Source of the DNA: Anaerosomatales bacterium
GTDB lineage: Bacteria; Actinomycetota; Coriobacteriia; Anaerosomatales; Anaerosomataceae
Assembly (NCBI GenBank): GCA_030019445.1
Contig: JASEEU010000001.1
Location: 124,001-188,000, forward strand
DNA: 64,000 nt
Direction of reading: 5' to 3'
Under the pieces are notes generated by a model that searched no databases, was not told the DNA's origin, and was given only the letters and a program-made list of their open reading frames with translations. Below, in pieces: positions 16,154 to 30,263 of the stretch. Position 1 is the first letter of the stretch; each line of letters begins with the position of its first letter. The position numbers and the translations under genes were made by a program.

Positions 16154-17046
16154 AGATTGACGGCCGGACACGCCCCGCGGGCATCATCGGGTGGCCTGTG
16201 GGACACTCGCTCTCACCGGCGATGCATAACGCGGCGTACGAAGACCTGGGTCTCAATTGGGTCTACCTGCCGCTGCCCGTCGCCGATCAGGCGGGGCTCG
16301 TGCGCGTGGTCGACGCGATCCGGTCGCTGCCGTTCGTGGGCTTCAATGTCACCATGCCGTTCAAGCAGGCGATGCTGGAGCTGTGCGACGAGGTTGCGAT
16401 GTTCGCCCAGATGGCGGGTGCCGTCAACACGGTTCACTGCGTCGACGGGAAATTGATCGGCTACAACACCGATGGCCGCGGATTGCTCGAGGCGCTGGAG
16501 GAGGAGGCCGGCTTCTCGCCCGAGGGCAAGCGCGTCGCGGTGATCGGCGCGGGGGGAGCGGCGGGGGCCGCGTGCGTCGGGTTCGTGCTCGGTAAAGTCG
16601 AGCGGATGACGGTCGTCAACCGCAGCATGGACAAGGCCGAGGAGCTCCTCTCGCGATTCGAGCGCTACCTGCGCGGCGTGGAGGCGCACGCCGCCGTCCT
16701 CGGTCCTGAAGCCGAGGAGGCCGTGCGCAACGCCGATCTCGTCGTGAACGCGACGCCGCTCGGCATGAAGGCCGACGATCCCAGCCCCGTGCCAACGGAG
16801 TGGCTCCATCCCGGACAGGTCGTGTGCGACATGATCTACCATCCGCGAACGACACCGTTGCTGGATGCGGCCGGCACGGTGGGCGCGACCGCGGTCGGCG
16901 GCCTGGGCATGCTCGTCGCCCAGGGAGCGCTGGCTATCGACATCTGGTCCGAGGCCGCCCAGACGCGAGCGCCACGAGAGGTGATGCGTGCCGCCGCCGA
17001 AGATGCGATAGCGGCATTGGAGTCCGAGGGGGAGGGCGACAGGTGA
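16150..17046 (+). CDS. aroE: Shikimate dehydrogenase (NADP-dependent)
   Basis: Enzyme of the shikimate pathway reducing 3-dehydroshikimate, 298 residues. The substrate domain has GWPVGHSLSPAMHNAAYED and NVTMPFKQ with the catalytic lysine. AGAVNTVH and GYNTDGRG contain the catalytic aspartate. The Rossmann domain has VIGAGGAAGAACV, and the C-terminal GGLGMLVAQGALAIDIW is conserved. The next shikimate genes (aroC, aroKB, aroQ) lie 18.7 kb downstream, beyond the pilus locus. GTG 16150 overlaps the upstream stop, and pilB1 overlaps its end by 4 bases, so aroE and pilB1 may be cotranscribed. Confidence 0.96.
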   Translation: MKIDGRTRPAGIIGWPVGHSLSPAMHNAAYEDLGLNWVYLPLPVADQAGLVRVVDAIRSLPFVGFNVTMPFKQAMLELCDEVAMFAQMAGAVNTVHCVDGKLIGYNTDGRGLLEALEEEAGFSPEGKRVAVIGAGGAAGAACVGFVLGKVERMTVVNRSMDKAEELLSRFERYLRGVEAHAAVLGPEAEEAVRNADLVVNATPLGMKADDPSPVPTEWLHPGQVVCDMIYHPRTTPLLDAAGTVGATAVGGLGMLVAQGALAIDIWSEAAQTRAPREVMRAAAEDAIAALESEGEGDR

Positions 17047-18716
17047 CGGCCGCATCGGGCAAGCGCCTCGGCAAGGTGCTCGTGCAGTCCGGGGTCATCT
17101 CGGAGGAACAGCTCCAGTCGGCGCTGTCCGAGGCCGATGGCCGCACCCTGTCGAGCGTGCTCGTCGAGCAGGGCGTGGCGACCGAGCAGAAGATCGCCCA
17201 GGCGGTAGCTGAGAGCATGGGGCTCGCGTACGTCGATCTCGGCGGATACGAGATCGACCCGACGGCCGCCACGATGCTGGCCACGGATCTGGCGAAGCGA
17301 CACTGCGTCCTGCCGATCAAGATCCAGGACGACGAGCTCGTGGTCGCGATGGCCGATCCCGCGAACATCTTCGCGATCGACGACCTGCGCATCGTGACCG
17401 GATACGAGATCCGTCCGGTCGTCGCGGCCGAGAGCGATGTCGTGGCCTCCATCGAGAAGTTCGCCACGATGAACCAGAACGTCGACGAGATGGTCAGCGA
17501 CCTCGATGAGACCTCGGTCGAGCAGGAGGCCGAAGACCGCGCCGCCGCCGCGGACGAGGAAGCGCCGGTGGCCAAGCTCATGAACCTGGTCGTCACCGAG
17601 GCCATCCGGCAGGGCGCCGGTGACATCTACGTCGAGCCGCTCGAGAACGAGCTCCGCGTGCGGTACAGGATCGACGGCGTGTGCCAGGAGGTCGTGCGCA
17701 GCCCCAAGAAGCTCCACCGACAGCTGATCAGCCGCATCAAGATCGCATCGGGCATGGATATCGCCGAGAAGCGCATCCCGCAAGACGGCCGTTTCGGCGT
17801 CGTCCTCGATGGAAAGGGCGTCGACTTCCGCGTCGCGGTCCTGCCCACGGTCCAGGGCGAGATGTCGGTCATGCGTCTGCTGCGTCGCGACGCGATCATG
17901 ATGTCCCTCGAGGACCTTGGTTTCCTTGAGCATGCGATGGGGCAGCTGCTCGACGCGATCAACAAGCCGTACGGGTGCCTGCTCGTGACCGGACCGACAG
18001 GGTCCGGCAAGTCGACCACCCTGTATGCGGCCATCAACAAGACGGCCGACCCCAAGATCAACCTCATCACAGTCGAGGACCCGGTCGAGTACCGGCTCGA
18101 AGGTCTGTCCCAGGTCCAGGTGCACGAGAAGGCGGGTCTCAGCTTCGCTGCGGCGCTTCGTTCCATCCTCCGTCAGGACCCCGACGTCGTCATGATCGGT
18201 GAGATCCGCGACAAGGAGACCGCTACGATCGCCATCGAGGCCGCACTCACCGGTCACCTGGTGCTCTCCACGCTTCACACCAACGACGCGCCCTCGGCGC
18301 TCACCCGACTGACCGAGATGGGCGTGGAGCCGTTCCTCTCGGCCTCGGCGGTCAACTGTGTGCTGGCGCAGCGTCTCGCACGACGCCTCTGTTCGGAGTG
18401 CAAGGAGGCCTACACGCCCGATCCGGCGGCGCTCGACCGCATCGGCTTCCCGTACGACCCCGACAACCTGCCGACCCTCTACCGCGCCGTGGGCTGCAAG
18501 CGCTGCAGCGGGATCGGCTACAAGGGTCGGATGGGCGTGCATGAGGTCATGACCGTCACCGAGGAGATCGAGCGGGCGTGCGTGAACCATGCCTCCGGCG
18601 ATGAGATCGCCCGCATCGCCGTCTCCCAGGGCATGAAGACGCTGCGCGATGACGGCTTCGCCAAGGTGGCGATGGGCACGACATCCGTCGAGGAGATCAT
18701 GCGCGTCGTCGTCTAG
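17043..18716 (+). CDS. pilB: Type IV pilus assembly ATPase PilB, first copy
   Basis: Cytosolic hexameric motor that drives pilus extension, 557 residues. The N-terminal MshEN-type region begins with RLGKVLVQSGVISEEQL (residues 8-24) and a second helix motif, then the 'DPANIFAIDDLRIVTGYEI' stretch. The catalytic half has Walker A GPTGSGKST near residue 317, Walker B PDVVMIGEIRD, the His box GHLVLSTLHTND, and a tetracysteine zinc site (CSEC then CKRC). The Asp box reads GDIYVEP rather than the common SDIHIEP. GTG 17043 overlaps aroE. A second pilB lies at 23096; this one is separated from the other motor genes by a regulatory module, so the two may serve different states or pili. Confidence 0.93.
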   Translation: MTAASGKRLGKVLVQSGVISEEQLQSALSEADGRTLSSVLVEQGVATEQKIAQAVAESMGLAYVDLGGYEIDPTAATMLATDLAKRHCVLPIKIQDDELVVAMADPANIFAIDDLRIVTGYEIRPVVAAESDVVASIEKFATMNQNVDEMVSDLDETSVEQEAEDRAAAADEEAPVAKLMNLVVTEAIRQGAGDIYVEPLENELRVRYRIDGVCQEVVRSPKKLHRQLISRIKIASGMDIAEKRIPQDGRFGVVLDGKGVDFRVAVLPTVQGEMSVMRLLRRDAIMMSLEDLGFLEHAMGQLLDAINKPYGCLLVTGPTGSGKSTTLYAAINKTADPKINLITVEDPVEYRLEGLSQVQVHEKAGLSFAAALRSILRQDPDVVMIGEIRDKETATIAIEAALTGHLVLSTLHTNDAPSALTRLTEMGVEPFLSASAVNCVLAQRLARRLCSECKEAYTPDPAALDRIGFPYDPDNLPTLYRAVGCKRCSGIGYKGRMGVHEVMTVTEEIERACVNHASGDEIARIAVSQGMKTLRDDGFAKVAMGTTSVEEIMRVVV

Positions 18717-18885
18717 CTGCCTGCCATCGTCGAAAGAACACCCGTGTCAACGTGCGGTTTTCGACCGTGCTCTGTTGTCTCGCATACGTCGTCGTGAGAA
18801 ACTGAGAACGCTCGCCACGGGGGGCCGGTGTGTCGCGCTCCCGGTCCGGCGGGCCCTGTGACGAGCGCCGACGGAGGTGACCAGC

Positions 18886-19488
18886 ATGGTGGACAAGGGC
18901 ATCGGCGACTACTTCATCAGTGACGCGGATGACGAGGCGCTCGAGGACGACGACCTGCTCGAGCCACCGGTCGTGATCCCCGTGACCCCTCAGGCCGCGG
19001 CGGCGCCTGCTCCCGCGGCGCCTACCCAGCCGTCTCCGCCAGCGCCGGCTCCCGCGTCAGCGACAACGCCTGCCCCGCAGCCCGCTGCGCCGGCACGGCC
19101 GCAGGCGCAGGCCCGGCAGGCCTCGCGGGAAGAACAGCTCGCACAAGCACTGGACGAGCTGATGCAGCAGGATCCCGACATCCAGGCCGCAGCCCTCGTG
19201 AGCCTCGACGGCTTCACCATGGCGTCTGCGCTCCCGCAGGGCATGCAGCCGGACCGAGTCGGCGCGATGTCCGCCGCCATCCTCGGCCTCGGCGAGCGAG
19301 CGGCCGCCGAGCTCGGCAGGGGCCATCTGTCCCAGGTCTTCATCGAAGGGGAGGGCGGCTACGTGCTGCTCGTCTCGGCGGGGGACCGCGCCGTGCTGAC
19401 GGTGATGGCCGACTCCGGCGCTAAGCTCGGATTGGTGCTCTACGACATGAAAGTCGCTGCCGAGCGGATCGGTCGTATCCTCGGCTGA
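18886..19488 (+). CDS. Roadblock/LC7-domain protein (MglB/CvnB-like)
   Basis: A 200-residue protein. Residues 1-30 are acidic, residues 30-85 are an Ala/Pro-rich linker, and the rest is a roadblock/LC7 domain (QALDELMQQDPDIQAAALVS, GFTMASALP, DRVGAMSAAILGLGERAAAE, GYVLLVSAGDRAVLTVM). Roadblock proteins bind and regulate small GTPases: MglB in Myxococcus, CvnB in the Streptomyces conservons. A matching GTPase lies two genes downstream. GGAGGT stands 7 bases before ATG 18886. The 169 bases upstream hold no clear promoter or terminator that I can defend. Confidence 0.87.
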   Translation: MVDKGIGDYFISDADDEALEDDDLLEPPVVIPVTPQAAAAPAPAAPTQPSPPAPAPASATTPAPQPAAPARPQAQARQASREEQLAQALDELMQQDPDIQAAALVSLDGFTMASALPQGMQPDRVGAMSAAILGLGERAAAELGRGHLSQVFIEGEGGYVLLVSAGDRAVLTVMADSGAKLGLVLYDMKVAAERIGRILG

Positions 19489-19534: not shown

Positions 19535-21451
19535 ATGGCGCTGCGCGGTAACTTGAAGGACTTCAGCCTCCCCGATGTCTTCCAGCTCGTTCAGTTGAGC
19601 CGGAAGACCGGTGTTCTGCGCATCCGTAACGGCGAGTCCGAGGGCAGCATCTGGTTCCGCGACGGCGACGTGTTCTTCGCGCAGTCCAACTGGCGCCGGG
19701 AGCCGCTCGGCCAGCGCATGGTGCATGCCGAGAAGATCACCCCGAGCGCGCTTGCCAAGGCGCTCGAGATCCAGGAGCGCGAGCCTGAGGGCGGACGGCG
19801 CCTGGGCCAGATCCTCGTCGACGAGGGCTATGTGACCGAGGGCGTGCTCGAGGCGTTCGTGCAGGAGCAGATCCAGGACACGATCTTCGACCTCATGCGT
19901 TGGGATGAAGGCGAGTTCGACTTCGAGCTGCTCCCCGACGTCGTCCATGAGGACATCGGTCTGGCGGTCTCCATCGAGAACATCATCATGGAGGGCAGCC
20001 GGCGCCTCGAGGAATGGAACCGCATCAAGAAGAAGGTGCCGGCCACCGACATCGTCTTCAAGATGGCGACCGCGCCCGGAGAGGGCACGTTCGAGATCTC
20101 GCTCAAGCCGATCGAGTGGAACCTCCTCCTGCTCGTCGACGGAACGCGCGACGTGCGCGAGCTGGCCGAGGAGACCCGCAGGACCGACTTCGAGGTCGCG
20201 CGGATCATCTACGGTCTCTTCTCGGCCGGCCTGCTCGAAGTAGCGGCGCCCGACGAGGTCGAGCGCCTCAGAGCGGAGCGTGCAGAGCGCGAGGCCGAGC
20301 AGGCGAAGACCCGCGCGGCAGCTGAAGCGGAGGCGCAAGCGGCAGCGGCGAAGGCCCAGGCTGCCGCTCCCGTTGTCGCGGAGCCTGCCGCCGAGGCGCC
20401 CCCGGCCGAGGAGCACGTGCCCGAGGTTCCGCACGAGGAGCCCGAGTTCCTGTCCGGTGCCGGTGGCTCGGCGACCGCCGATGACATGGCGGTCTTCGAG
20501 CAGATGATGGAGGCGGTGCTGACGCCGCAGTCGGAGGCGCCGGAGCCGGAGCCCGAACCCGAGCCCGAACCGGCGCCCGAGCCCGAACCGGAACCGGAGC
20601 CCGAGCCCGAACCGGAACCGGAGCCCGAACCCGAGCCGGAGCCCGAACCCGAACCCGAGCCCGAACCCGAGCCGGAACCCGAACCCGAGCCGGAACCCGA
20701 ACCCGAGCCGGAGCCCGAACCCGAACCCGAGCCCACGTTCGATGAGGCGGCTGCCATCCTCGAGTCTCTCAGCGCCGAGGTGCCCGAGGCGGCGGCCACA
20801 GAAGCGGTCGAACCCGAAGCACCGGCCGAAGAGACGGAGCCGAGCGAGGATCTGACGCCCGAGGAGTACGCATTCGGTGCACTGAGCATGGCTGACATGG
20901 CTGATATCCCGGCACCGCCCGTGAGCGAGGAGCTTCCGGTCGATGAGTCGGCCGCCGTGGCGCCGGAGGAGGCCGCAGCGGGTGTGTCCGGGGACTTCGA
21001 GGCAGACTTGCGTGCTCTTGGCCTCGGTGAGCTCCCGGGGGAGGAAGCTCCTGCAGAGCCCGAGCCTGATGTGCTTACGGAGTTCGAAGTCCCCGAAGTC
21101 GAACCGGTGGCGGAGCCGGTCCGGGAAGAGCCCGAACCCGAGGCCGATCTCGACCAGATCCTTCGGTCGCTCGGTACGGAGGATGAGGCAGGGGAGGCCG
21201 AGTCGCCCGGACAGGTGATATCGACCGATGCCTACCTGGCCGAGTTCGATACGGATGTCGGACTGCAAAGCGGGCTCGGTGATGAGATCACCGCGCTCAC
21301 CGGCGCCGGCGGCGGGGCAGGGAGTCGCCAGCGGCCCTCCGCGACGGTATCGAAGCTGCCGGAGCCGGGAGAGGGTGCCGTGTTGCACCGGGATCAGCGT
21401 GTGGATCGCGGGCTGGTCATGAAGATCATCGAGGGTATCGAGAAGCTGTAG
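19535..21451 (+). CDS. DUF4388 (PATAN) protein with MshEN-like motifs and a Glu-Pro repeat
   Basis: A 638-residue soluble protein. The N-terminal DUF4388/PATAN domain ([20 protein letters not shown], then [14 protein letters not shown]) spans about 1-150. Within it are two tandem 24-residue segments (57-80 and 89-112) matching the RLG-x2-hh-x2-G-hh-x4-L-x3-L-x2-Q plan of MshEN c-di-GMP sites; the second begins [18 protein letters not shown] winged-helix-like part ([20 protein letters not shown]) follows to about 245. Then come an Ala/Glu coiled region, a 65-residue Pro-Glu repeat, and an acidic tail. DUF4388 proteins often accompany GTPase and motility modules. A linker or adaptor role between GTPase and pilus motor is inferred. 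No strong Shine-Dalgarno site is seen before ATG 19535. Confidence 0.82.
20540..20734 (+). repeat. In-frame Pro-Glu dipeptide repeat inside the DUF4388 gene
   Basis: A 195-base tract of alternating CCG/CCC and GAG/GAA codons encodes 65 residues of (EP)n with a single Ala interruption. Mixed codon use argues for selection on the protein, probably as a rigid extended spacer, although length variation by slippage is likely. The antisense reading gives a meaningless Ser-Gly frame. Confidence 0.95.
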
Positions 21452-21469: not shown

Positions 21470-21997
21470 ATGCAGTCCGTCAAGGTCGTCGTAACGGGAC
21501 CGTTCAACGCGGGGAAGACGACGTTCATCAAAGCCGTGAGCGAGATCACCGTGCTCTCGACCGAGCGTCAAGTCAGCGACGTTTCAGGTGAGGGCGGTGG
21601 CGAGACCACCGTCGCCATGGACTTCGGTCGCATCACGGTCTCCGATGACGTGGTCCTGTACCTGTTCGGTACTCCCGGGCAGGAGCGCTTCTCGTTCATG
21701 TGGGAGACACTGTCCGAAGGCATGCTGGGTTTCGTGCTCCTGGTGGATGCCAAGAGCTCCGAGTCGATCTCCGATGCCGTGGGAATGATCGAGTTCTTCA
21801 CCGAGATGTCCGACGTGCCCTTCGTCGTGGCCGGCAACAAGGTCGATGCGGACGACACCGCGACGCTGCAGGATCTGCGTGCCAAGCTCGGCATCGCCGA
21901 TGAGGTCCCGCTCCTTCCCTGCGACGCGCGGGACAAGGACAGCGTGAAGGCCGTACTTCTCGGCCTGCTGTACCGGATCCTCGACACCATGGGATAG
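21470..21997 (+). CDS. Ras-like small GTPase (CvnD/MglA-like)
   Basis: A 175-residue G-domain protein with all five motifs: G1 GPFNAGKTTFIKAVSEI, G2 TTVAMDFGRI, G3 YLFGTPGQERFSFMW, G4 GNKVD, G5 PCDARD. The catalytic glutamine of G3 is present. G1 and the VAMDFG/FGTPGQERF segments are close to CvnD GTPases of the Streptomyces conservons, and the fold is shared with MglA. It follows the DUF4388 gene by 18 bases and precedes a membrane protein by 4. With the roadblock protein upstream it forms a likely switch controlling the pilus machinery encoded around it; that link rests on location. Confidence 0.88.
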   Translation: MQSVKVVVTGPFNAGKTTFIKAVSEITVLSTERQVSDVSGEGGGETTVAMDFGRITVSDDVVLYLFGTPGQERFSFMWETLSEGMLGFVLLVDAKSSESISDAVGMIEFFTEMSDVPFVVAGNKVDADDTATLQDLRAKLGIADEVPLLPCDARDKDSVKAVLLGLLYRILDTMG

Positions 21998-22001
21998 ACC
22001 G

Positions 22002-22997
22002 GTGGACCCGCGGCTCTACATCCTCGGCGGTCTGCTGCTCCTCTTCGTCCTGCTGCTGGTCTATCTGTTGATCGCGATCCGGCAGTACCGGCGCGCACTG
22101 CGGCTCGAGGCGCAGGGGCAGGTGGCCGAGACGGAAGGCGGCGGCAGCTACCTGACCGCGGATGACGAGGGACCGACCGGTCCGCTTGATGAGAGTCCGG
22201 AGAGCCCCGAACCGGAAGTGGTCGCCGCGGCAGAGCCGGTTTCGGCCGAGCCGGTCGCGGCACCGGAGGGGGAGCTTCCCGCATGGGCCGCCGCTCAACT
22301 TGAGGTGGAACGTGCCGCTGCGGCGACACCGCCCCCCGTCATGCAGACGCCACCGGAGCCTGAGCCGGCGCCGATCGCCCCGGAGGTCGTCGAGGCGTCC
22401 CGCCCGACGCGCATCGAGCCGACGCGTGCGGCCGCGGCGCTCTCGGTGGCTTCGGCGATGCCAGGGGAACCGGCCGCGGCGCCCGAGCAGACACCGGTAG
22501 CCGACACGGTCTCCGATGGCGACCAGGAGCTGGACCTGCTCGTGGCCTCTCTGTCCGCGCTGGCGGCCGAGGGAGCGGAGGCGGCAGACACCCCGGGCGC
22601 CACGGAGACTCCCCAGCCCGAGCCCGAGCCGGAACCCGAGCCCGAGCCGGAACCCGAGCCGGAACCCGAGCCGGAACCCGAGCCGGAACCGGAGCCCGCG
22701 GTGGAGCCCACCCCGGAGACCGCTCAGGCTCCGATGCCGATCCCGGCAGCAGCGGCCGAGCAGATCCCCCTGCCCGGGTCCTCCCCGGAGTCAGACATCA
22801 CGCCCACGCCGGCGTCGACCCCGGAGCCGTCCCGTCCGGCAGAGGTCCCGGAGTACTCGCTCATCGCCCCGGTGGAGCTGCACTTCACGGTCGGCGAGGG
22901 CAGGATCGGCGTCAAAGCCGGCACCCGCACGTACGCCGAGTTCCAGCGGCTTGCGCGCGTGCTGCTCTCGGACCTCGAGCGCGCGCGTCGCGGCTGA
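22002..22997 (+). CDS. Single-span membrane protein with Glu-Pro repeat, unknown function
   Basis: A 331-residue protein not recognised as a known family. One N-terminal membrane helix (LYILGGLLLLFVLLLVYLLI) is followed by a long, low-complexity, Pro/Glu/Ala-rich cytoplasmic or extracytoplasmic tail containing a second Pro-Glu repeat. A compact, more ordinary C-terminal piece of about 45 residues (YSLIAPVELHFTVGEGRIGV, then YAEFQRLARVLLSDLERA) may be the functional end. It starts with GTG 4 bases after the GTPase, so it may be its membrane partner or effector. Confidence 0.7.
   Translation: MDPRLYILGGLLLLFVLLLVYLLIAIRQYRRALRLEAQGQVAETEGGGSYLTADDEGPTGPLDESPESPEPEVVAAAEPVSAEPVAAPEGELPAWAAAQLEVERAAAATPPPVMQTPPEPEPAPIAPEVVEASRPTRIEPTRAAAALSVASAMPGEPAAAPEQTPVADTVSDGDQELDLLVASLSALAAEGAEAADTPGATETPQPEPEPEPEPEPEPEPEPEPEPEPEPEPAVEPTPETAQAPMPIPAAAAEQIPLPGSSPESDITPTPASTPEPSRPAEVPEYSLIAPVELHFTVGEGRIGVKAGTRTYAEFQRLARVLLSDLERARRG
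22617..22697 (+). repeat. Second Pro-Glu dipeptide repeat
   Basis: An 81-base tract of CCC/CCG and GAG/GAA codons encodes 27 residues of (PE)n. It resembles the tract at 20540-20734 in a gene two places upstream, so the two proteins share the same kind of spacer. Confidence 0.93.
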
Positions 22998-23095: not shown

Positions 23096-24772
23096 GTGGC
23101 TGCCGAAGCCGGACAAAGACTCGGCCAATTGCTCATGCGCGCCGGTGTCATCACCGAGCGACAGTTGAATGACGCCCTCGAAGTCCACAAGGCCACGGGC
23201 AGCCCGCTCGGTCGCGTGCTCGTCGACCTGGGCTACGCGACCCAGGGCGCTATCCTCGCCGTCATGGCCCGGCAGATCGGCATCCCATACATCGACTTCT
23301 CGGAGCGCAAGCCGGACGCGAACGCGATCTCGGTCGTCCCGCGCGATCTGGCCGAGCGTTACACGCTGATGCCCGTGGACATCGACGAGGACAACCATCT
23401 CGTCGTGGCGATGGCGGACCCGCAGAACGTACTCGCCCTCGACGACCTCCGCATCATCACCGGCTACGAGATCCGACCCGCGATCTCGACGAAGGACGAC
23501 ATCGTCGCGGCGATCGAGGATTACTACAAGGTTGCTGAGCACGTCGACGCCGATCAGTTCATGAGCACGGACGACCTGGAGCAGCCTGACCTCGAGACGC
23601 TGACGGAGGTCTCGGACGAGGCGCCGATCGTCAAGCTCGTGAACTACATCATCAACAAGGCGGTCACCGACCGTGCGAGCGACATCCACATCGAGCCCCA
23701 GGAGAAGGACCTGCGGGTCCGGTACCGCGTCGACGGCGTCCTGCACGAGGTCATGCGTAGCCCGCGGGCCACACAGCAGGCGATCATCAGCCGTTTCAAG
23801 ATCATGTCGGACATGGATATCGCCGAGACGCGCAAGCCGCAGGACGGCCATACCGCGCTCACCGTCGCCGGCCACAAGATGGACTTCCGCGTCTCCACGC
23901 TGCCGACGGTCTACGGAGAGCGTGTCGTACTGCGGATCCTGCGCAAAGACAACATCATGCTGCGGCTCGAGGACCTCGGCTTCATCCCGTCGTCGCTCGA
24001 GCGTTTCGAGAGCTCGTTCCGCAAGCCGTACGGCGCCATCCTCGTCACCGGGCCCACGGGTTCGGGCAAGTCGACATCGCTGTACGCCGCGATCAACGTG
24101 CTGAACTCTCCCGAGAAGCACATCCTGACCGCCGAGGACCCCGTCGAGTACCGGCTGCCCGGCGTCAATCAGATACAGACCAACGCCAAGGCGGGCCTCA
24201 CGTTCGCCCGTGCGCTTCGGTCCTTCCTGCGGTGCTCTCCCGACATCATCCTCGTCGGTGAGATCCGCGACCAGGAGACCGCGAAGATCGCCATCGAGTC
24301 GGCGCTGACCGGCCACCTCGTGCTGTCGACGCTGCACACCAACGACGCCGCCGGTGCGGTCACCCGACTCACCGAGATGGGCGTCGAGCCGTTCCTCGTC
24401 GCGTCGGCGGTCGACTGCGTGCTCGCGCAGCGGCTCGCCCGCCGTCTGTGCTCGGACTGCAAGGAGGAGTACGCGCCCGAGCGGCAGGCGCTGTTGGATG
24501 CCGGCTATCCTGCCGATAACCTGCCCGAGAAGCTCTACCGTGCTGTCGGATGCAAGAAGTGCGGGGGCACCGGCTACCGGGGACGGATGGGCATCCATGA
24601 GGTCATGCTGCTCAGCGAGGAGATCGGCGACCTCACGGTACGGGACGCGACCGCCGAGGAGATCAAGGCGGTCGCAATCGAGCAAGGAATGCTGACGCTC
24701 AAGGAGGACGGACTCGAGAAGGTCCGCATGGGAACGACGTCCATAGAGGAGATCATGCGCGTCGTCGTGTGA
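23096..24772 (+). CDS. pilB: Type IV pilus assembly ATPase PilB, second copy
   Basis: A 558-residue extension motor. The N-terminus has two MshEN-type motifs (RLGQLLMRAGVITERQL at 8-24 and PLGRVLVDLGYATQG at 37-51). The catalytic half has the Asp box SDIHIEP, Walker A GPTGSGKST near 319, Walker B PDIILVGEIRD, His box GHLVLSTLHTND and zinc cysteines CSDC and CKKC. The residues before Walker B read RCSPD where RQDPD is usual. It is followed at once by pilT and pilC, so this is the copy in the standard motor operon. GTG 23096 is chosen from homology to other PilB N-termini; the RBS is weak (GGGAGA). Confidence 0.94.
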   Translation: MAAEAGQRLGQLLMRAGVITERQLNDALEVHKATGSPLGRVLVDLGYATQGAILAVMARQIGIPYIDFSERKPDANAISVVPRDLAERYTLMPVDIDEDNHLVVAMADPQNVLALDDLRIITGYEIRPAISTKDDIVAAIEDYYKVAEHVDADQFMSTDDLEQPDLETLTEVSDEAPIVKLVNYIINKAVTDRASDIHIEPQEKDLRVRYRVDGVLHEVMRSPRATQQAIISRFKIMSDMDIAETRKPQDGHTALTVAGHKMDFRVSTLPTVYGERVVLRILRKDNIMLRLEDLGFIPSSLERFESSFRKPYGAILVTGPTGSGKSTSLYAAINVLNSPEKHILTAEDPVEYRLPGVNQIQTNAKAGLTFARALRSFLRCSPDIILVGEIRDQETAKIAIESALTGHLVLSTLHTNDAAGAVTRLTEMGVEPFLVASAVDCVLAQRLARRLCSDCKEEYAPERQALLDAGYPADNLPEKLYRAVGCKKCGGTGYRGRMGIHEVMLLSEEIGDLTVRDATAEEIKAVAIEQGMLTLKEDGLEKVRMGTTSIEEIMRVVV

Positions 24773-28715: not shown

Positions 28716-30263
28716 ATGACCGCAGAGACCCTCCGCAAGAGACTCCGGCGAGACGACGGTATGACGATCCTCGAGATCCTCATCGCGGCCGTCATCCTGT
28801 TCATCGTTCTCACCGCGATCCTCGGGCTCGTCGGATCCACTACCATGACCGGCCTGCAGGCCAAGGAGAAGAATGTCATGGTCAACGCGGTCAACGCGTA
28901 CATCGAGCGCGTTCAGGCCCTGCCGTTCGACGAGGTCGTCGTGGGAACCGGCACAGGTGAGTTGCCTCCCGTGGAGACGATGACGATCGGCGAGTTCACG
29001 GTGACGATCCGGCCGACGATCTCGGCGGGCTCGAACCCAGCGCTGAAGAATCTGGCGCTCGACGTGTCGGTGACATCACCCAAGACCAACCGGACGCTCA
29101 CTATGAACACCACGGTCGCCGTTCGCGACCGGTCCCAATACCTGACTCAGGCGGTGCAGGACCCGGCGACCAACCCGCAGATCGCGTTCGACGATGGGTT
29201 GACTCCACCTGAGAGTACGGTCGTGTGGGATGCTGCATGGTCTGGTGGCGCCCTGAATCTGGCTGCATCGGCGACGGCGTACGAAGGCAGGACGATCGAG
29301 GTCGTCGAGTGCTGGGTGGACGACCAGTACTACCTCAAGAACACCTTCGGTGACCCTGGGCGCTGGACGCCCCAATCGGAGACGTGGTCGGTGACCGGCT
29401 TCATCTGGGACACGCACCAGACCGAGCCCATCCTGCAGGACGATGGAGTGACCTACATCGACGAGGAGGTCATTGCGGATGGCATGCGCACCATCTCGCT
29501 GTATGCGGTAGACAACACCGGCGCGACCTCGCGGGTCATCAGGCACTTCCTGGTCGACAACGATCCTCCCGGAAATCCCGGGACGCCAGCGCCCACGGCA
29601 CGTACGAACGCCGTGAGCGGTCTGACGTGGAGCGCGGCCTCTGACGGCACGCTGCCTGCGGATCACTACGAGGTCAGGATGTGGAAGCAGGCATCCACTG
29701 ACGAGCTGGCCGAGGACCCGACCGCGTACTGGTACGAGGTGCCCGGGGGTGTCACGTCCTCATCCTCGTTTGAGGCCGCTACGACGTCACTGGGACGCTA
29801 CTGGGCGGTCGTCCGCGCACTCAGTCCGGAGCCGAATGAGCGGTCATCGGGGTGGGTGCATGTGGCGCGCCCATGGATCAGCAGGCCGCTCCTGACGGGT
29901 TCGTACACTGCGACCGGCGGTGGCGGAAACGGTGCGGGAGCGTACTGGCAGGTCACGAGCACGCTGAACGTCACCCCGCCATCGTTCCCGGTCTCGGCGC
30001 CGACGGTCTATCGTTTCTATCGCATCGAGCCCAACGGCAGTGAAGTCCTGCTCAATCCGGGCGACCCGGGAGCGACCACATGGACCGACACCGTGAAGGT
30101 GGTCGGCAACAAGGTCCCGTATCCGACGCGCACGTACAAGGTGGTCGTGGACGTGACCCCCGCGGGATACGCAGGTGGCACGGTTGAGAGCCTCATGTCC
30201 AACAGTGTCGAGATAACGAATCGGGGCGTGGGGACGTTCACCTTCACGGAAGGGACGTGGTAA
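28716..30263 (+). CDS. Large prepilin-like protein, putative minor pilin or tip adhesin
   Basis: A 515-residue protein with a class III prepilin N-terminus: leader ending RRDDG, then MTILEILIAAVILFIVLTAI with Glu5 and a membrane helix. The C-terminal 450 residues are far larger than in a structural pilin, mostly beta-rich, with segments resembling fibronectin III or Ig-like repeats (GLTWSAASDGTLPADHYEVR at about 308-328). A large variable domain on a pilin stem suggests a tip or adhesive role, which is inferred. ATG 28716 follows AGGAGAGGGAG; GTG 28713 is equally possible. The next gene starts at its stop. Confidence 0.78.
   Translation: MTAETLRKRLRRDDGMTILEILIAAVILFIVLTAILGLVGSTTMTGLQAKEKNVMVNAVNAYIERVQALPFDEVVVGTGTGELPPVETMTIGEFTVTIRPTISAGSNPALKNLALDVSVTSPKTNRTLTMNTTVAVRDRSQYLTQAVQDPATNPQIAFDDGLTPPESTVVWDAAWSGGALNLAASATAYEGRTIEVVECWVDDQYYLKNTFGDPGRWTPQSETWSVTGFIWDTHQTEPILQDDGVTYIDEEVIADGMRTISLYAVDNTGATSRVIRHFLVDNDPPGNPGTPAPTARTNAVSGLTWSAASDGTLPADHYEVRMWKQASTDELAEDPTAYWYEVPGGVTSSSSFEAATTSLGRYWAVVRALSPEPNERSSGWVHVARPWISRPLLTGSYTATGGGGNGAGAYWQVTSTLNVTPPSFPVSAPTVYRFYRIEPNGSEVLLNPGDPGATTWTDTVKVVGNKVPYPTRTYKVVVDVTPAGYAGGTVESLMSNSVEITNRGVGTFTFTEGTW

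Follow-up and report, generated by a model that had tools for sequence, protein, structure and literature searches.

The window that we analysed, a 64,000-nucleotide stretch of an Anaerosomatales genome (contig JASEEU010000001.1, positions 124,001 to 188,000), carries a type IV pilus operon with a gene for a DUF4388 protein. The genes around it are as follows, in window coordinates.

17043-18716, forward strand: PilB1, with motif copy II broken (TLSS...S); Pfam T2SSE and MshEN; 40 orthologs.
18877-19488, forward strand: Roadblock/LC7 (MglB-like) protein; Pfam Robl_LC7, E 1.3e-18; present at 41 of 44 ortholog loci.
19535-21451, forward strand: DUF4388/PATAN protein of 638 aa; Pfam PF14332, E 3.6e-35, residues 4-162.
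21470-21997, forward strand: small Ras-like GTPase (MglA-like); Pfam ATP_bind_1 and Ras; NCBIfam small_GTP above cut-off.
22002-22997, forward strand: next open reading frame in the operon, a protein with a hydrophobic N-terminal segment and an EP-rich middle.
23096-24772, forward strand: PilB2, with copy I ending in His and copy II in Gln; Pfam T2SSE and MshEN; 25 orthologs.

A preliminary description of this DNA, made from the letters alone, had placed the DUF4388 gene between a Roadblock protein and a GTPase. We found this to be correct: the Roadblock gene lies upstream and the small GTPase gene downstream, and the GTPase has the P-loop GPFNAGKT and an NKVD. The Roadblock protein and Ras-like GTPase expected of an MglA/MglB module are thus both there, but the Roadblock protein scored 18.8 bits against a cut-off of 200 for the NCBIfam MglB equivalog NF052242 and so fell short of it. 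Related genomes share the gene order AroE-PilB1-Roadblock-PATAN-GTPase-tail protein-PilB2-PilT-PilC. At the 44 ortholog loci we counted Roadblock in 41, PilB1 in 41 (PilB2 orthologs being labelled "PilB1" in this count, since the two are alike), and the GTPase in 35. The nine loci without a GTPase break off within the PATAN gene or shortly past it, and missing genes fall mostly at contig ends. Wherever the contig extends far enough, the gene at 22002-22997 is found at the same position. The EP-repeat region of its product resembles the tail of the PATAN protein in style. MglA and MglB genes have been found near PATAN genes before (PMC4316618), and, as in those modules, a Roadblock protein and a small GTPase flank the PATAN gene; here, however, they are fixed inside a PilB/PilT/PilC operon of Anaerosomatales.

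The 638-aa protein scored 121.1 bits against the DUF4388 model (PF14332), for which the Pfam gathering score is 25. We take DUF4388 to be the PATAN domain of the literature, which is supported by the helical insertion and the pilus context. Relatives were present in 66 of the 79 related genomes searched, and those of high identity came nearly all from Coriobacteriia-type metagenome-assembled genomes, including one from Anaerosomatales. The protein is laid out as follows.

19535-19684, forward strand: PATAN core, first half (one strand, one helix, then three strands), residues 1-50; AlphaFold (AF2) model.
19703-19774, forward strand: copy I of the MshE-like 24-residue motif, residues 57-80; NF053729 match; helices 58-64 and 70-82.
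19775-19798, forward strand: spacer between copies I and II, 8 residues (81-88); sequence and alignment.
19799-19870, forward strand: copy II of the MshE-like motif, residues 89-112; NF053729 match; helices 90-96 and 102-121.
19871-20020, forward strand: remainder of helix 102-121, then PATAN core, second half, residues 113-162; Pfam and AF2 model.
20021-20251, forward strand: winged-helix-like unit, residues 163-239; structure comparison.
20366-21406, forward strand: Glu/Pro-rich low-confidence tail, residues 278-624; pLDDT mostly below 50 in the full-length model.
21407-21445, forward strand: conserved C-terminal helix, residues 625-637; pLDDT about 80; similar in most complete orthologs.

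In structure comparison, the winged-helix-like unit resembled parts of GATOR1 chains as well as many winged-helix proteins (Z up to 9.7), and it is followed by a long helix (residues 239-277). Besides the GATOR1 parts, the folds closest to residues 163-239 were other winged helices and RRE/PqqD-type domains. The Glu/Pro-rich tail is probably disordered, judging by the model, and has short conserved patches in the ortholog alignment and short helices. The C-terminal helix, with a consensus of roughly VD+xLxxKIIxGIxxL in most complete orthologs, is likely a binding peptide, and the tail looks like a tether with this peptide at its end. As quoted in PMC11580455, Makarova 2006 gave PATAN as the PatA N-terminal domain "with an alpha-helical insertion". 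The protein described here shares with DUF4388/PATAN proteins a region (residues 4-162) that scores as DUF4388, a helical insertion in a beta core, and an association with pilus control. It differs in that it has no receiver domain, in place of which stand the winged-helix-like unit and an extended acidic tail whose terminal helix is conserved.

The full name of NCBIfam model NF053729 ("c-di-GMP_motif, MshE-related") is "cyclic di-GMP-binding domain-containing protein, MshE-related". This model matched residues 57-112 of the PATAN protein over its whole length (positions 1-53 of 53, E 1.3e-12), with 47.3 bits against a curated cut-off of 38, and all 50 of 50 orthologs and paralogs matched it as well. 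When all PDB sequences were searched, residues 52-134 matched PilB (5tsg, E 5.9e-5) and residues 54-136 matched MshE (5htl, E 4.7e-4). We also considered a chance match of residues 57-112 to the MshE-type motif, and the E-values from NF053729 and the PDB ruled it out. The PATAN insertion is firmly related to MshEN_N, the c-di-GMP-sensor half of MshE/PilB. The preliminary description had read tandem 24-residue MshEN motifs at residues 57-80 and 89-112; the homology stood up to NF053729 and the PDB, whereas the fit of copy I did not.

The NF053729 cut-off was rejected as proof of ligand binding: PilB1, whose copy II is plainly broken (TLSS...S), also scores above it. Therefore, passing this cut-off is evidence of descent and not of binding. 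Conversely, Pfam MshEN (PF05157) gave no match in the PATAN protein. This silence means little, because the Pfam model covers the region after the tandem motifs, matching residues 62-147 of PilB1 and PilB2. In the PATAN protein the helix bundle continues into DUF4388 sequence and a PATAN strand, at the place of MshEN_C in MshE.

An AF2 model of residues 1-239 (alignment of 50 sequences; pLDDT 88 overall) placed the helices 58-64, 70-82, 90-96, and 102-121 at the positions of both motif copies. The helical insertion (58-121) sits in the PATAN beta core, between strands 45-50 and 127-132. The top PDB match of the model in Foldseek was MshE with c-di-GMP (5htl; probability 1.00, rmsd 1.5 Å, 59 columns, 32% identity), and the Foldseek E-values for the whole 1-239 model were weak (0.066 at best) because the insertion is small. 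VIA gave Z 6.3 to 5htl on residues 55-144 and Z 5.7 to PilF GSPII-B on residues 55-115; values of this size may arise by chance for small helical pieces, but here the sequence agrees. The VIA-align rows were dominated by the winged helix (163-239), and the PATAN beta core was barely covered there. By the model and the Foldseek match to 5htl, the insertion has the four-helix fold of MshEN_N. The preliminary description had named a predicted fold unlike MshEN as one thing that would refute it, and the prediction came out on the side of MshEN.

The same author had proposed a profile search of DUF4388 proteins for the c-di-GMP motif. In other families of the phylum, 40 DUF4388 regions were sampled, with a bias toward high-scoring DUF4388 matches, and the motif model matched 30 of them. 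A few DUF4388 proteins (loci L238, L239, and L241) had no insertion at all. Thus, the insertion is a separable module. Nesting of an MshE-like insertion in PATAN is widespread, and the parts are of known kinds. At position 5 of copy I, 49 of 52 DUF4388 insertions have a basic residue (Arg or Lys); MshE has Leu there, and PilB orthologs almost all have a hydrophobic residue. In these alignments the basic position 5 is a consistent difference between DUF4388 insertions and MshEN proper.

Six key positions (R, L, G, L, L, Q) have been defined per motif copy (Wang et al. 2016; PMC5013675). The PATAN protein keeps 10 of the 12 ligand-contact positions, the exceptions being P57 and V109; accepting Val in place of Leu would raise the number to 11. 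Both LG pairs and both final Gln are present: the final Gln reported earlier for copy II was confirmed, and copy I ends in Gln too. The earlier statement that both PilB copies here lack it was right for PilB1 (A in copy I, S in copy II) and wrong for PilB2, whose copy II keeps the Gln (PLGRVLVDLGYATQGAILAVMARQ). Copy I does not start with RLG, as had been claimed. It starts with PLG, has E66 in place of the turn Gly, and has K67 at a core hydrophobic position. Against the strict 24-residue motif (Wang et al. 2016), copy I departs at positions 1 (P57), 6 (M62, a mild change), 10 (E66), and 11 (K67), and copy II departs at positions 11 and 21, the latter being the second Leu (V109). Under the relaxed motif of the same paper copy II fits, and copy I fails at E66 and K67. 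The spacer of 8 residues compares with 5 in MshE and 10 in a paralog from the same genome. Because the protein has neither two strict motifs nor two relaxed motifs nor a 5-residue spacer, we do not class it as an MshEN receptor but as a PATAN adaptor whose insertion is related to MshE.

Set beside MshEN_N of MshE and of type IV pilus and type II secretion ATPases (PMC5013675; NF053729), the insertion has the same tandem 24-residue copies, four-helix bundle, and most contact residues. It differs in being nested in PATAN instead of standing at the front of an ATPase, with no MshEN_C detected, and in its spacer, its R/K at copy I position 5, and its deviant positions 1, 10, and 11.

In the conserved pilus operon the protein is best explained as a PATAN (DUF4388) adaptor of the type IV pilus in Anaerosomatales, whose insertion derives from MshEN_N or shares its ancestry; we put the probability of this reading at about 0.7. 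The computation shows the relationship in sequence and fold, the nesting, the conserved operon, the disordered acidic tail, and the conserved C-terminal helix. To our knowledge, binding between PATAN and PilB is known solely from cyanobacterial PATAN-receiver proteins. In Synechocystis, PATAN regulators bind the pilus motor protein PilB1 (PMC12288463, PMC10519157) and PilC (PMC12288463). The folded N-terminal part of the protein would dock on the pilus motor in the same manner. The MglB-like and MglA-like neighbors would decide where and when the adaptor acts, and the tail with its terminal helix would tether a partner. If direct c-di-GMP control were absent, the insertion would serve as a docking surface. 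The Synechocystis response regulators PixG and PixE, which bind PilB1, likewise place a PATAN domain in pilus control, but they take their input through a receiver domain in a light-driven pathway, and the protein here has no receiver.

The state of the putative ligand site bears on whether the adaptor senses c-di-GMP. In 43 orthologs the final residue of copy I is Arg in 23 and Gln in 14, position 10 is Gly in 13 and has lost the turn Gly in 30, and a basic residue (Arg or Lys) occupies position 11 in every one. Across the same orthologs copy II hardly varies, and this holds also for non-contact residues such as E106, F108, and E111. A second sample of 42 orthologs gave the same picture for both copies. 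On this sequence evidence the copy I half-site is not conserved as a ligand site among the orthologs. These observations suggest that the site may be a relic: the insertion would be only a docking or structural element, and c-di-GMP would reach the pili by another route, such as a paralog encoded in a chemotaxis operon or a third PilB. In all 36 orthologs of that paralog the two Gln and the two contact Gly are retained, and copy I is complete in the third PilB (RLGELLVAAGLVTRAQLDHALQVQ). Counting against a relic, most contact residues persist, and the copy I leucines are retained in nearly all 43 orthologs (position 2 in 41, position 17 in 43, and position 21 in 40). We regard a relic site as close to an even bet.

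The paralog is the second DUF4388 protein of the genome, 54% identical to the first (L068:7084-7827; contig C11, about 29083-29826). Its gene is the first of an operon that also encodes CheR, a PilB-like ATPase carrying an MshEN domain, two CheW, MCP, CheA-REC, and CheB. Position 24 is Gln and position 3 is Gly in both copies in each of those 36 orthologs. Because these residues are kept, the paralog is a better candidate for a c-di-GMP receptor than the pilus-operon protein, and binding is more credible for it. The PilB-like ATPase in its operon ties PATAN once again to pilus-type control.

Alternatively, the insertion of the pilus-operon protein might be a working c-di-GMP receptor, in which a ligand held between the copies would shift the pose of the insertion and so change the grip of the adaptor on the motor or the GTPase. 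The 10 retained contact positions, with both Gln and both LG, speak for this, and Pro is permitted at position 1 of the relaxed motif, with perfect motifs perhaps not required (PMC5013675). GSPII-A of PilF from Thermus thermophilus (PMC12002112) is an MshEN-type fold with motif deviations that fails to bind, partly because its helix 1 extends into the pocket, and it is a precedent against a working receptor. However, PilF GSPII-A has lost both final Gln, whereas the PATAN protein has both, and in the AF2 model helix 1 of the insertion begins only at residue 58, directly after P57. We infer from the model that P57 would disfavor a PilF-type extension of this helix. The genome also offers reason to expect receptors of this kind. 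It has 15 GGDEF domains and 2 EAL domains, and we found no PilZ domain in it. GGDEF was present in every genome of the order that we searched (about 5-23 domains each), and no PilZ domain scored above the cut-off in 79 related genomes. With many GGDEF domains and no PilZ, MshE-like modules, in PilB ATPases and PATAN adaptors, are obvious receptor candidates. We also sought DUF4388 insertions in GGDEF-free genomes, which would have spoken against c-di-GMP as the ligand; all 48 of 48 genomes checked have GGDEF, and hence this test had no power. Against a working receptor stand the changes to the final Gln, turn Gly, and position 11 of copy I among the orthologs, the spacer longer than that of MshE, and the lack of a detectable MshEN_C after the insertion. 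A working receptor is therefore conceivable but somewhat doubtful on balance. Direct sensing or control of this protein by c-di-GMP can likewise be proposed only tentatively, because copy I drifts among the orthologs.

A ligand other than c-di-GMP, whether another cyclic dinucleotide or a nucleotide, is very improbable for the insertion: the non-canonical position 1 of copy I and the basic position 5 found in nearly all DUF4388 insertions would fit such a change, but we know of no other preferred ligand for the MshEN fold. Moreover, binding of c-di-AMP to MshE was undetectable, and its binding of cGAMP was weaker (PMC5013675).

If the PATAN insertion does bind c-di-GMP, it would gain a function, and a single adaptor would bring together the second messenger, the pilus motor, and a Ras-like polarity switch. 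It is plausible that the messenger is connected in this way, by the GTPase switch, to the motor. Ligand binding, if shown, would be of real interest. A wider proposal would make the "alpha-helical insertion" of PATAN/DUF4388 domains a c-di-GMP receptor nested in the fold. PATAN adaptors would then pass the signal of the messenger straight on to the pilus motor and to an MglA-type switch, and they would supply the receptor that seems to be missing in GGDEF-rich, PilZ-free bacteria; we consider this proposal unlikely in its full form. Part of the picture is already known: NF053729 labels such regions, and both the PATAN insertion and the gene neighborhoods have been published. In the open literature that we searched, subscription papers lying outside it, we found no paper equating the PATAN insertion with MshEN, and the one paper that mentioned DUF4388 dealt with another subject. 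That the insertion is the same module as MshEN_N was therefore not found written down there.

The genome holds further PilB-type ATPases. In the PilB-like ATPase of the chemotaxis operon (L068:9846-11711), the MshE-type N-terminus is degenerate (19.3 bits against a cut-off of 38) and the Walker A region is irregular, read by eye as APVAGGRSST. Therefore, this ATPase may be a non-motor relative. A further PilB-type ATPase (C11:467597-467755, reverse strand, locus L242) scores higher for the c-di-GMP motif than any other in the genome (65.2 bits), and its first copy is complete.
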